Shown here: one piece after another, positions 49,546-56,516 of the stretch
Layout: every line of letters begins with the position of its first letter
Position numbering within the stretch: position 1 is the stretch's first letter
Translations under genes and position numbers: made by a program
Assembly: GCF_011059105.1 (NCBI RefSeq)
Contig: NZ_JAALLS010000004.1
Span: 1-64,000 of the forward strand
Length of the DNA: 64,000 bases
Direction: 5' to 3'
Origin: Fodinibius halophilus
Lineage (GTDB): Bacteria > Bacteroidota > Rhodothermia > Balneolales > Balneolaceae
Notes under the pieces: model-generated
Database searches by the model: none
Told to the model about the DNA's origin: nothing
What the model saw: only the letters and a program-made list of their open reading frames with translations

Positions 49546-51318
49546 CTAATTCAAATGATGGCTTCCAATGCCCTTGGTAGCAATATTTTCAAAGGAAAGA
49601 ACAAAAGTAGTGCCTTCATGATCCGAATAATAATCGATATCCCCCTCTAACTGCTTAGAAAGAATATTGATCAACTTCAGGCCTAAAGTGTCCGGATGCT
49701 TCATATCCAAATCGCGAGGTATCCCTTGCCCATTATCAGATACTTCAAGAGTTATCTGACTTCCCCGTTCACGAAGAATGATATCTATCTTGGCATATTC
49801 TGCGTCCTCAAATGCGTGTTCGATAGCATTTGAAACCAACTCATTAACAATAAGAGCTGCCGGTATCGCCCTATTCACATTAACAACAACATGGTCTAAA
49901 TCATAATTTATTACTATCGGTACATCCGCTTCCAGCGTCGCTTTAATCGTATCCACCAGCTTTGTTAGCTGTGTATGGAACTCTAAATCTGAAAAGTTTT
50001 CGCTTTGGTACAATAGTTCGTGAATAGAGGCAATGGATTGGATACGAAGCTGACTTGCCTGCAACTTACTGGTAAAATGGACATCATCTGTTTGCATCGT
50101 TTGCAACTCCATCAGCCCCGATATTACGGCCAGGTTGTTTTTAATGCGATGGTGAATCTCTTTGAGTAATACCGTTTTTTCTTCCAGTGATTTTTTCATC
50201 TCCTCTTCATAGCGCACTCGCTCTGTTATATCAAGCCCTACCGTTTGGGTAGCATCCCGGCCATCATATTTTATAGGCATCGATTCTAACAGCAGGTAAC
50301 GCTCTTTACCGTCGAGGGAAGTAATTTCATAGATGGTAGGCGACACTTTTTCTTTAGATTCTTGTACCTGAGACACGCGTGCATGCGCTTTTTCGAGCTG
50401 CGACTCTTTAACAAGATCATAAATATTCAACCCTTCCACTTCCTCGGCAGATTCTGCCCCAACCAGATTAACTCCCCCCGGATTTACGAATTGAACAATC
50501 CCATCAATATGGATCATTATCAGGTTAGGGTCTTGCTCCACAAGCTTCTCCCACCGTTTCCTGCTTTGGTCAATTTTTCGTCTGCTCTCCTTTAACTCCT
50601 CAATCTTCTTCTGCAGCCGGGTAGTCATTATATTAAACTCTTCTGCTAATCTCGCGTGTTCATCTTCCCCTTCCAGCTCTATTGCACCCGCCAGATTACC
50701 GTTAGCAATTTGTTTTGTCTCCTTGAGTAAAATATCAAGAGAGTAGTTAAGACGCCTGCGAAAGCGAAAAATAAGAAATGCGATAATAAAAACGGATGGT
50801 ACAAGAAGCAGCTGCAACAAGAAAAACTGGTATTTCTGCTGATACTGAATATCATCTTGTAAATTATTGATAACATTATATGCTATCGATTGAAACATCT
50901 GGATATCTGCTCGTATTCTCCCCTCTGCACGTTCCAACAGCTCTTCTTTGCGTTGCTCATTCGAATATTGCTCTGGATTTTCCTTGATTTCTCGAATCAA
51001 TTCAAAAGCATCTTTAACAGACCCCATATAATTTTTCATCGCTTTTCTCCTTGGCAGGTCTTGCGTTGAATCAACTTTGAGCCGAAGTTCACGATAAAGC
51101 TTATCCCAACTTTTTAAATGGCGCGCTTTTCCATGGGCTAAATATGCGCTTACAACTACTTCTACATTTGAGGCTGTATTTTTAAATTCATTGAGCCTAT
51201 TTAAGCTTTCTATCTGACTATTCAGTTGTGACTTGGAGTGCCATAGCAATCCAAATGTCAGCAGTATAACGCCGACAGAACAAGCAGCAATAATATTTAG
51301 ACGCGTTTTTAGCTTCAT
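49546..51318 (-). CDS. HAMP-PAS-HisKA_2 membrane histidine kinase
   Basis: Two membrane helices (about 10-26 and 166-184) enclose an about 135-residue helical periplasmic domain. HAMP (about 188-245), PAS (about 265-375) and HisKA_2 with Ile-His-His-Arg-Ile-Lys-Asn-Asn-Leu-Ala (about 392-401) follow. The HATPase region has Asn-Glu-Leu-Val-Ser-Asn-Ala and Asp-Asn-Gly-Gln-Gly-Ile-Pro. Total length is 590 residues. Its start overlaps the binding-protein gene stop by 4 bp, so the binding protein is probably its ligand sensor. No regulator gene adjoins. Confidence 0.85.
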   Translation of the reverse strand: MKLKTRLNIIAACSVGVILLTFGLLWHSKSQLNSQIESLNRLNEFKNTASNVEVVVSAYLAHGKARHLKSWDKLYRELRLKVDSTQDLPRRKAMKNYMGSVKDAFELIREIKENPEQYSNEQRKEELLERAEGRIRADIQMFQSIAYNVINNLQDDIQYQQKYQFFLLQLLLVPSVFIIAFLIFRFRRRLNYSLDILLKETKQIANGNLAGAIELEGEDEHARLAEEFNIMTTRLQKKIEELKESRRKIDQSRKRWEKLVEQDPNLIMIHIDGIVQFVNPGGVNLVGAESAEEVEGLNIYDLVKESQLEKAHARVSQVQESKEKVSPTIYEITSLDGKERYLLLESMPIKYDGRDATQTVGLDITERVRYEEEMKKSLEEKTVLLKEIHHRIKNNLAVISGLMELQTMQTDDVHFTSKLQASQLRIQSIASIHELLYQSENFSDLEFHTQLTKLVDTIKATLEADVPIVINYDLDHVVVNVNRAIPAALIVNELVSNAIEHAFEDAEYAKIDIILRERGSQITLEVSDNGQGIPRDLDMKHPDTLGLKLINILSKQLEGDIDYYSDHEGTTFVLSFENIATKGIGSHHLN

Positions 51319-52331
51319 TCTATAAGAATAACACCTTCAGGGTGAACTTCTTTTAGGGGCCCTTTATTAATAATATCCAAGTAATTCAAATCAGTCGTAT
51401 CAGCTCTTCCTTTCTTAATTAACCATCGTTCCTGATCTTCAAATAACTGTATCATGCGTTCACTCATCGAAAGTTTATAATCAATTTTCTGCCACACCGC
51501 TTCGATAACACTTACCGGAACTTCTATATTAGCGGCCAATATTTTTCGCGTTTCTTCTGCATGCTTTTCGATATATTGGTTTGCCCTATGCAACGCTTTC
51601 AAATAAGCTATTAATACCTTGGGATTTGATTGCGCAAATGAATCAAGTGTTGATACCAACCAAAGGGTAGAAAAGTGAAGTTTTGTTTTTAGCAGTGTGC
51701 TTTTAGGACCTAGCTGTTTTTCTGAAAAAGTAGCATAAGGCTCCCAATTTACGGAGACATCTACTCTGCCTTTTCTCAGAGCCTCTATTTGAGCCTCTGA
51801 ACTTAAGTCAATTAGTGTTAGGCTGTCTTTTGAGATCTGATGTTCCAACAAAAAAGAATCCAGGTAATATTCGAGCTGTGTGCCCTTTGCAAGCGCTATC
51901 TTCTTACCAACAACATCTTTGGGCCGGCTGATACCATGGTCTTTACGAGCTACTATTTTCTGAATTTCATCCGTAATAAGCAGGTTTGTGATTATTTGAA
52001 AAGGCGGGGGATTCCCTTTTTTATAGTAAGATGAATCGACCAGTGAATAAACAACAGGTGTTTCTGCCACATGGGCGATATCTACCACATTATCGAAGAG
52101 ATCATGAATGGAGGCCGTACCAGACTGATTGTGTTTTAAGGTTACATTTAATCCATTTTCTTTGAAAAACCCTTTTTCTTTTGCAACAAATATTGCCGCC
52201 TCACCAATAAATGAAGAAGTGATCCCTACTGTAATGTCCCTTGACTCTGGCTGGGCCTGCTGATCCTCTGTGGTACAGTTATTTGCCAGTAGAATAACTA
52301 CCAAAACAACCACATAGTATACATTTCTCAT
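51315..52331 (-). CDS. Substrate-binding lipoprotein (SsuA/THI5-like), kinase-linked
   Basis: The N-terminal signal ends in a lipobox-like Leu-Ala-Asn-Asn-Cys, then a SsuA/TauA/NMT1-type binding domain. Seen are Ile-Thr-Ser-Ser-Phe-Ile-Gly-Glu-Ala-Ala-Ile-Phe-Val-Ala-Lys-Glu-Lys-Gly-Phe-Phe near 36-55, Ile-Ala-His-Val-Ala-Glu-Thr-Pro, and Val-Asp-Val-Ser-Val-Asn-Trp-Glu-Pro-Tyr. The family binds sulfonates, nitrate or pyrimidine/thiamin precursors for ABC import. Here no permease or ATPase gene is present; the next gene is a histidine kinase. A periplasmic sensor role is therefore likely, with the ligand unknown. Confidence 0.8.
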   Translation of the reverse strand: MRNVYYVVVLVVILLANNCTTEDQQAQPESRDITVGITSSFIGEAAIFVAKEKGFFKENGLNVTLKHNQSGTASIHDLFDNVVDIAHVAETPVVYSLVDSSYYKKGNPPPFQIITNLLITDEIQKIVARKDHGISRPKDVVGKKIALAKGTQLEYYLDSFLLEHQISKDSLTLIDLSSEAQIEALRKGRVDVSVNWEPYATFSEKQLGPKSTLLKTKLHFSTLWLVSTLDSFAQSNPKVLIAYLKALHRANQYIEKHAEETRKILAANIEVPVSVIEAVWQKIDYKLSMSERMIQLFEDQERWLIKKGRADTTDLNYLDIINKGPLKEVHPEGVILIE

Positions 52332-53384: not shown

Positions 53385-53457
53385 GAGCGGGAAACCAGAT
53401 TCGAACTGGCGACCTTCTCGTTGGCAACGAGATGCTCTACCACTGAGCTATTCCCGC
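53385..53457 (-). tRNA. tRNA-Gly (GCC)
   Basis: The 73-nt cloverleaf has acceptor GCGGGAA/TTCCCGC, discriminator T, anticodon loop TTGCCAA (anticodon GCC) in stem TCTCG/CGAGA, and T-loop TTCGAAT. No CCA is encoded. Confidence 0.92.
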
Positions 53458-53503: not shown

Positions 53504-53962
53504 TCAAACTTTAATTTTTTTGCGAACTTTTCCAGATTGGATTCGATCATTAATTGTATCTTGATCAGGAAGGCTTGGGCGATCCCTTTCACGGTCTACA
53601 GTACAGATAAAACCCAGGGGTTCTCCACAATCGGCATGAAACTGGTGCAGACTATTAGGAGCAATATACACAACATCATGCAGAGATAACTGATGTAATT
53701 CATTTTCCAGTATTACGGTCCCTGCCCCACGGATCACCACAACCGAGTGTGGATGTTCATGGTATTCAAAAGACGTATAGCCTCCGGGCTCAACTTCAAA
53801 ATAGCGCGTTTGAAAATTCAGAGCCTCTTCATCCTGCTTTTCACCCAACAATGAGTACCGGTGAACACCTTTGTAGCAGCTGCTATCATCCTTATAATCT
53901 TTACGTGATACCGAATCCCACTCATAGTTGGCACATTTAATAACTTTAGATCTGTTAGCCAT
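53504..53962 (-). CDS. Cupin protein paired with RuBisCO-like protein
   Basis: The 152-residue cupin has motif 1 His68-x-His70-Pro-His72-Ser-Val-Val-Val-Ile-Arg-Gly and motif 2 Pro-Asn-Ser-Leu-His106-Gln-Phe, with Cys120 in Phe-Ile-Cys-Thr-Val-Asp-Arg-Glu-Arg-Asp-Arg-Pro. In Rhodospirillum rubrum a cupin near a RuBisCO-like protein is a 1-methylthioxylulose 5-phosphate methylsulfurylase in the MTA-isoprenoid shunt. The resemblance and pairing here suggest a related role, but the other genes of that route are not in view. The RuBisCO-like gene ends 9 bp before this start. Confidence 0.7.
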   Translation of the reverse strand: MANRSKVIKCANYEWDSVSRKDYKDDSSCYKGVHRYSLLGEKQDEEALNFQTRYFEVEPGGYTSFEYHEHPHSVVVIRGAGTVILENELHQLSLHDVVYIAPNSLHQFHADCGEPLGFICTVDRERDRPSLPDQDTINDRIQSGKVRKKIKV

Positions 53963-53971
53963 TATGAGTTT

Positions 53972-55078
53972 TTATTCTCTAGTAAGTTTATCTTGAAGCT
54001 CTTGAGCTCCTTTGATAATACCTTCAGGATGTTCATACAAACTACCGCCTATTAAAAATACGGTATCCTTACCATAGTCGGCAACCCAACGATCCAGATC
54101 GTCTATCTCCATACCCCCGCCGGGCATAGGAAACGACTTCTTGAAATCAGAATCAGGGGTGCGTGCTGCCCCATTAATTGCCTTGCATTGTTCAGTCGTA
54201 AATGAGAACCGTCCTCCCTTGTTTGGATATATGATGAAATCTGCTCCGAAGGCACGCCACAGTTGGCCGTACAAAAAATCGGGGGTAAATCCATTTGTTT
54301 CGTGCATAACAAGCTGTCCGGAAAAAGCAGGATGCGCAATAATGGGCAGGTCAATATCCATTTGAGCCAGCTTATGCATCGTTGGCAGACCGCTAATATG
54401 GGGACAAAGCAATACGCCATCAGCACCCCTCCGGGCAGCCATTTGATATCGCTCTATTGCTTCTTCCGGTGAAGCAGTAATATTGGGATAATAGGATGCT
54501 CGATTTCCCGTCTGTTCTTCCGCTTTGCTAATTGCCGAAACACAGGCTTTCAACCGTGCCCCAAAAGGAGCTGCCGACTGATTTGCGAGCCCGTGATCAT
54601 CCTTGATGATATCGATGCCGCCACAGGCAAACTGAAAACAATAATTTGCCAACTCAGATGGCGTGCTCCCCACAGGTTTTAAAGCCGTTGCGCTTAATGG
54701 ACGATCTAAAACCTGGTGCCGATTACGCACTTCTTTGAGTCCTACAGCCGGTCCAGCAAAAAGGTCCGATAGCTCAGTCCAATCAGCACTGGTTACACGA
54801 ATACCCGGTTTTAGAGAAATATTCCCATACAGTACATTTATGAATTGCGTAATTTCTCCGCCAAGATTAGCAATAGGCCAAGAGATAACTACTTCAAATT
54901 GGTCTTCCTTTACTTTTTCTATAGAGACCGGATCGCCCACTACTTCCTCTTCTATGTGGGAATCCAACAAGGCGCCGGGCAGCTCAACGGATTGTTCCAG
55001 GCAGATAGATTTAACCTTCTGATCTATATCTTCCCCGTCACTCAAGGTCAACAGATATGTGATTTCGAAGGCACTCAT
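53972..55078 (-). CDS. RuBisCO-like protein (form IV)
   Basis: I choose ATG 55078 (Met-Ser-Ala-Phe-Glu-Ile); the longer reading to 55177 runs through the purA terminator. The 368-residue protein has the RuBisCO barrel with Lys134 in Ala-Leu-Lys-Pro-Val-Gly. Lys159-Asp160-Asp161 keep the carbamate/metal site, but the usual Glu is His162. Another motif is Pro-Ile-Ile-Ala-His-Pro-Ala. Loss of the fourth residue suggests no CO2 fixation, as in form IV proteins that isomerise or enolise methionine-salvage sugars. Operon with the cupin points to the R. rubrum-type methylthioribulose-phosphate route; this remains an inference. Confidence 0.85.
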   Translation of the reverse strand: MSAFEITYLLTLSDGEDIDQKVKSICLEQSVELPGALLDSHIEEEVVGDPVSIEKVKEDQFEVVISWPIANLGGEITQFINVLYGNISLKPGIRVTSADWTELSDLFAGPAVGLKEVRNRHQVLDRPLSATALKPVGSTPSELANYCFQFACGGIDIIKDDHGLANQSAAPFGARLKACVSAISKAEEQTGNRASYYPNITASPEEAIERYQMAARRGADGVLLCPHISGLPTMHKLAQMDIDLPIIAHPAFSGQLVMHETNGFTPDFLYGQLWRAFGADFIIYPNKGGRFSFTTEQCKAINGAARTPDSDFKKSFPMPGGGMEIDDLDRWVADYGKDTVFLIGGSLYEHPEGIIKGAQELQDKLTRE

Positions 55079-55144
55079 CCGGAACTGTTTTGGGTGAACA
55101 GTGGAAATACCACTGGTATCATACTCTTTGTTCGTATAACTAAA

Positions 55145-55167
55145 AAAGGGGCCATAACGGCCCCTTT
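55145..55167 (-). terminator. Terminator after purA
   Basis: AAAGGGGCC and GGCCCCTTT pair perfectly around ATAAC, with a run of T on the minus strand. It lies between purA and the RuBisCO-like gene, so the latter has its own promoter or relies on read-through. Confidence 0.75.
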
Positions 55168-55187
55168 CCACAATCATTATTTAATCA

Positions 55188-56516
<1,329 letters not shown>

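Follow-up and report, generated by a model that had tools for sequence, protein, structure and literature searches.

A RuBisCO-Like Protein and a Cupin in Probable Methionine Salvage

The closest described counterparts of the locus treated here are the 5′-methylthioadenosine (MTA)-isoprenoid shunts of Rhodospirillum rubrum (Rru_A1998 and Rru_A2000) and Rhodopseudomonas palustris (RPA2169 and RPA2170), each of which pairs a RuBisCO-like protein (RLP) with a cupin. R. palustris possesses two RLPs, of which RLP1 was characterized in vitro and in vivo as a 5-methylthioribulose-1-phosphate 1,3-isomerase, with its cupin acting as a methylsulfurylase (PMC5893883). The coenzyme of the R. rubrum methylsulfurylase is glutathione (PMC4334135). 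Bacillus MtnW, a YkrW-clade RLP, is instead a DK-MTP-1P enolase.

We describe an RLP-cupin pair from Fodinibius halophilus, located in a 64,000-nucleotide stretch of contig NZ_JAALLS010000004.1 (positions 1 to 64,000, forward strand; hereafter the window). Like the systems of R. rubrum and R. palustris, it combines a DeepYkr-type RLP from their clade, bearing a Lys-Asp-Asp-His (KDDH) motif, with a nearby cupin of the same fold and metal-binding histidines, while mtnA, encoded elsewhere in the genome, and an O-acetylhomoserine (OAH) sulfhydrylase are likewise present. It differs in its Bacteroidota/Balneolota host, its position downstream of purA, the lack of a recognized mtnP, and the moderate identity of its proteins to those of the purple bacteria (about 32% for the RLP and 33–34% for the cupin). 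MtnW shares with the window RLP the RuBisCO fold, the Lys/Asp/Asp site, and probably a place in methionine salvage but displays KDDE rather than KDDH, belongs to a separate clade, and catalyzes another reaction; its partner mtnD is absent from the F. halophilus genome.

Architecture of the Locus

The two genes are encoded on the minus strand with a spacing of 9 bp, the cupin lying downstream (Table 1). The longest open reading frame for the RLP opens at 55177 and encodes 401 aa, yet homologues align only from about residue 34 onward, and a terminator hairpin sits inside the longer reading; translation thus most likely begins at Met34 (55078), the same position at which the initial annotation had placed the gene boundary. 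This hairpin, which was missed by a terminator scanner and revealed by folding, ends purA and separates it from the RLP-cupin unit. Downstream of the unit and of the tRNA gene, an SsuA/NMT1-like substrate-binding lipoprotein overlaps (ATGA) a HAMP-PAS-HisKA_2 sensor kinase (49546–52331, minus strand); this pair is possibly a sensor of organosulfur compounds or thiamine precursors.

Table 1. Features of the RLP-cupin locus and its borders (window coordinates)
Feature	Position	Strand	Description	Basis
tRNA-Gly(GCC)	53385–53457	-	downstream boundary of the RLP-cupin unit	
Cupin	53504–53962	-	152 aa; predicted 1-methylthioxylulose-5-phosphate methylsulfurylase	phmmer, Foldseek, conserved residues
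RLP	53972–55078	-	368 aa, beginning with Met at 55078; predicted 5-methylthioribulose-1-phosphate 1,3-isomerase (DeepYkr type)	Pfam RuBisCO_large, best PDB match 3QFW, tree
KDDH active-site motif	54593–54604	-	K192-D193-D194-H195 (401-aa numbering); His at the position of RuBisCO's metal-ligand Glu	
Intrinsic terminator hairpin	55142–55169	-	after purA, in the part of the 401-aa reading frame that precedes 55078	folding: ΔG -18.1 kcal/mol, z -3.55; a U run comes next
purA (adenylosuccinate synthase)	55188–56501	-	conserved upstream neighbor of the RLP in many Balneolota	

Placement of the RLP

The RLP matches the Pfam RuBisCO_large family (84 bits, E 1.4e-23), and NCBIfam models likewise place it in the RuBisCO superfamily. 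Its closest solved relative is an R. palustris RLP, 3QFW (1.5e-61; about 32% identity), which scores 466 bits as opposed to 228 for MtnW. An AlphaFold (AF2) model with a pLDDT of 95.4 displays the RuBisCO superfamily fold, aligning with 3QFW in Foldseek at TM-scores of 0.89/0.93. With two RLPs in R. palustris, and 2QYG deposited as rlp2, we infer that 3QFW is RLP1 (RPA2169).

To place the protein within its family, homologues were retrieved from one genome per species across 84,980 species, giving 80 named loci, and trees were built with MtnW and Photo RLPs as the outgroup (a quick tree of 104 rows and a careful tree of 72). The nearest relatives, from Fodinibius roseus and F. sediminis (57% identity each), both retain the purA-RLP-cupin order and group with the window RLP at a support of 100/99 in the careful tree, where the KDDH ingroup is separated from MtnW and Photo RLPs at 99/99. 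Within it, a cupin-associated clade contains both the window RLP and 3QFW, with an SH-aLRT of 95 in the quick tree and moderate support (92/84) in the careful tree; the Balneolota RLPs constitute their own, deep lineage inside this clade. The phylogenetic comparison proposed in the initial annotation thus groups the window RLP with 3QFW, and through it probably with RLP1, apart from MtnW and the Photo RLPs; a Photo RLP identity is ruled out by the tree. True RuBisCO was likewise rejected (120 bits against a cut-off of 438, with His in place of the catalytic metal-ligand Glu).

The same annotation had remarked that Lys-Asp-Asp is kept while His replaces Glu, and this holds. The exchange is no chance event: every one of the 17 rows of one alignment (A1) carries the His, as do at least 95% of rows in both KDDH subclades (94 family members). 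Moreover, the window RLP and 3QFW are identical at all 45 positions conserved in both subclades, and the residues that they have in common, absent from both MtnW and Photo RLP, include H162, N81, F291, and C298 (368-aa numbering). The exchange of His for Glu is therefore the normal state of the subgroup, the assayed branch and 3QFW included, and gives no sign of a new reaction.

Several outlying cases were encountered in the family. In addition to its KDDH RLP, a genome of the same genus (G199) encodes a further, distant member of the RuBisCO family (29% identity; contig C11, 94048–94968). Two RLPs are outliers of the KDDH group (L127/L128): that of Amnibacterium, which adjoins mtnA/mtnK, reads KDDQ in place of KDDH, and a deltaproteobacterial one is accompanied by mtnA, a pattern search returning no KDD motif in it. 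An RLP-cupin pair in a metagenome-assembled genome labelled Klebsiella pneumoniae (L107) groups with a betaproteobacterial pair, and its contig is probably mislabelled or mis-binned. Near the RLP of genome G104 (L040, 12336–13971), reading frames built of a repeated SQSYLCGIAT unit look like a translated CRISPR-type repeat array.

The Cupin Partner

Searches with the cupin using phmmer retrieved 3IBM from Halorhodospira (9e-39), 3KGZ from R. palustris (9e-23), and 3JZV, which is Rru_A2000 (1e-21); the same three structures rank on top when its model is compared by Foldseek. The resemblance to the R. rubrum methylsulfurylase partner pointed out in the initial annotation is thus borne out, with Rru_A2000 and its R. 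palustris homologue among the best structural matches. Homologue comparison showed that H68, H70, H72, H106, E66, and C120 are invariant. The cupin is thus homologous to Rru_A2000, retains the metal-binding histidines, and is a predicted methylsulfurylase.

Other Genes of the Proposed Pathway in F. halophilus

The genome encodes MtnA (454 bits for TIGR00512, cut-off 279) and, as the MEP-pathway gene covered by the search, dxs. The thiol-methyl sink that the initial annotation had suggested looking for is present as an OAH sulfhydrylase (684 bits, cut-off 495), which would consume methanethiol. Of the two genes in its companion suggestion, mtnA is clear. As for mtnP, no TIGR01694 match for an MTA phosphorylase reaches the cut-off in this genome or in any of 90 genomes of the same class, but PNP- and MTAP-like candidates are present.

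Four proteins of the PNP/UDP family are encoded. One PNP (contig C12; L055, 9012–9878) has Asp (ITDECF) at the base-recognition position; 6-oxopurine PNPs carry Asn in this loop. By elimination it is a candidate MTA/adenosine phosphorylase, although MTA activity is to be regarded as a possibility, since its closest solved relatives, 4M1E and 4LNA, also carry the base-site Asp. A second candidate stems from an operon on contig C4 (L057, 4779–10177) encoding a YnjB-like binding protein, two permease-like reading frames, an ABC ATPase, a divergent MTAP-like protein, and a divergent MtnK-like protein, which together might take up a thio- or deoxynucleoside and salvage it. We retain the operon only as a candidate MTA entry because both enzymes score far below the model cut-offs, the MTAP-like protein reads GHKYSM where MTAP has TDYDVF and seemingly lacks the base-site Asp, and weak MTAP matches resembling it also occur in class genomes devoid of an RLP. 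Either the C12 PNP or the C4 MTAP-like and MtnK-like genes could supply methylthioribose-1-phosphate.

Co-occurrence and Alternative Reactions

Among the 90 class genomes (thresholds: RLP E < 1e-39, cupin E < 1e-25, mtnA over the model cut-off), 27 encode a KDDH-type RLP, and exactly those 27 encode the cupin. All of them possess mtnA, compared with 15 of the 63 others. Fisher tests give 1.5e-23 for RLP and cupin and 1.4e-12 for mtnA, values that are strong yet not true probabilities, as the tests are not corrected for relatedness. In some genomes roughly 10 kb separates the cupin from the RLP; the two are thus linked in function and not by position alone.

This co-occurrence bears on the alternative that survives best, although we consider it improbable: the RLP might act mainly as a 1,3-isomerase of 5-deoxyribulose-1-phosphate, derived from the radical-SAM by-product 5′-deoxyadenosine, and yield 1-deoxyxylulose-5-phosphate (DXP) directly, the methylthio work of the cupin being secondary. 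Isomerization of the deoxy sugar would likewise give DXP, and MtnA/MtnK-type enzymes handle both MTA- and 5′-deoxyadenosine-derived sugars. A methylsulfurylase would be pointless for a deoxy sugar, however, and the cupin is kept in every one of the 27 RLP genomes. The parallel between MTA and 5′-deoxyadenosine has been discussed (PMC6302742).

Slightly less probable still is a new reaction, which the initial annotation had left open, with the RLP being a different sugar-phosphate isomerase or decarboxylase and the cupin serving another function. An identity of about 32% to the assayed enzyme and the depth of the Balneolota lineage leave room for it, and OiaX-type RLPs provide a precedent for a change of reaction within the superfamily. 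Arguing against it are the strict co-occurrence with cupin and mtnA and an active site common to 3QFW; OiaX itself, a 3-oxo-isoapionate-4-phosphate decarboxylase, was rejected with a score of 77.5 bits for NF042437 against a cut-off of 700. His for Glu, being normal for the subgroup, lends a new reaction no weight, and we regard such a reaction as unlikely.

An MtnW-like (YkrW) enolase operating in the canonical MtnW/X/D route can be dismissed almost entirely, given that the weak similarity in its favor (TIGR03332, 161.5 bits; PRK09549, 202 bits) falls far below the cut-offs (513.6 and 409), that the RLP carries KDDH rather than KDDE and lies in a separate clade, and that acireductone dioxygenase (ARD, MtnD) is missing from the F. 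halophilus genome and, in full-length form, from the 90-genome sample. The class yields short, weak ARD matches, and the three that pass the cut-off (29–35 bits) are partial; hence no canonical salvage route is seen.

Proposed Pathway

Taken together, the clade of the RLP, the fold of the cupin, their co-occurrence, the presence of mtnA, dxs, and OAH sulfhydrylase, the lack of ARD, and the His that marks the subgroup make the MTA-isoprenoid shunt the best reading, of which the RLP and cupin would form the distinctive half (probability about 85%). The earlier proposal that this organism feeds methionine-derived carbon into isoprenoids through the two proteins is accordingly supported by the RLP1 clade, mtnA, and the methanethiol sink. 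Of the two outcomes that the initial annotation had named as speaking against it, membership in an RLP subgroup of known different reaction and lack of any MTA phosphorylase, neither materialized outright.

Carrying over the reactions of assayed relatives, we infer the substrates and their order as follows. MTA would be split to 5-methylthioribose-1-phosphate by one of the candidate phosphorylases, and MtnA would convert this to 5-methylthioribulose-1-phosphate. The RLP would then catalyze metal-assisted enolization at its Lys/Asp/Asp(/His) site and reprotonation, yielding 1-methylthioxylulose-5-phosphate. The cupin, as a metal enzyme, would transfer the methylthio group to a low-molecular-weight thiol, releasing DXP to the MEP pathway and thus to isoprenoids, while methanethiol would return to methionine via OAH sulfhydrylase.

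The thiol probably differs from that of the purple bacteria. Unlike the R. rubrum and R. palustris systems, the F. halophilus genome contains the bacillithiol synthesis gene bshC and no glutathione synthase over the cut-off; TIGR01380 reaches its cut-off in none of the 90 class genomes. On these grounds the cupin probably uses bacillithiol or another thiol, not glutathione.

A Sister Clade with Split Transketolase

The sister clade of the cupin-associated RLPs shares their active-site residues, yet it is flanked by the N- and C-terminal halves of a transketolase (TKN and TKC) in the place of the cupin. It comprises 42 rows in the quick tree, a figure that includes three rows of Actinobacteria type grouping with it in the careful tree. 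The order TKN-TKC-RLP occurs in 22 of the 35 sister-clade loci with enough upstream sequence and at none of 55 cupin-side loci. Conversely, at no locus with TKN and TKC upstream of a KDDH RLP (L073, L075, L078, L082–L084, L089, L092, L095–L099, L105, L110, L122, L124, L131, and L133) does the cupin precede the RLP. Hosts include Clostridia, Spirochaetes, Chloroflexi, Nitrospirota, Myxococcota, and Chromatiaceae, among others; L105 comes from Alkalispirochaeta alkalica. The identity of the transketolase halves was confirmed, and mtnK and mtnA precede them in some Clostridia and relatives. No published description of this pairing was found in the part of the literature covered, and it is apparently undescribed.

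Transketolases act on D-threo ketose 5-phosphates. This is what the isomerase would make, in agreement with an RLP product that is a 1-substituted xylulose-5-phosphate. A plausible, if speculative, outcome is phosphoketolase-like, with β-elimination giving glyceraldehyde-3-phosphate, methanethiol, and an acetyl unit; these loci possibly represent an undescribed, thiol-free branch of methionine salvage. Tentatively, evolution could have provided two alternative outlets for a single RLP product, namely the cupin route and thiol-free cleavage of 1-methylthioxylulose-5-phosphate by the split transketolase.

Implications

The shunt is already known from purple bacteria and would occur here with a probable change of thiol. 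Its assignment to F. halophilus would extend their oxygen-independent methionine-salvage route to Balneolota and to further lineages of the same class, in which RLP, cupin, and mtnA co-occur strictly across the 90 genomes. The exchange of His for Glu is shown to be diagnostic of the isomerase subgroup. Two questions become testable: which thiol serves a methylsulfurylase where glutathione synthesis is lacking, and what role the split transketolase plays beside the sister RLPs.
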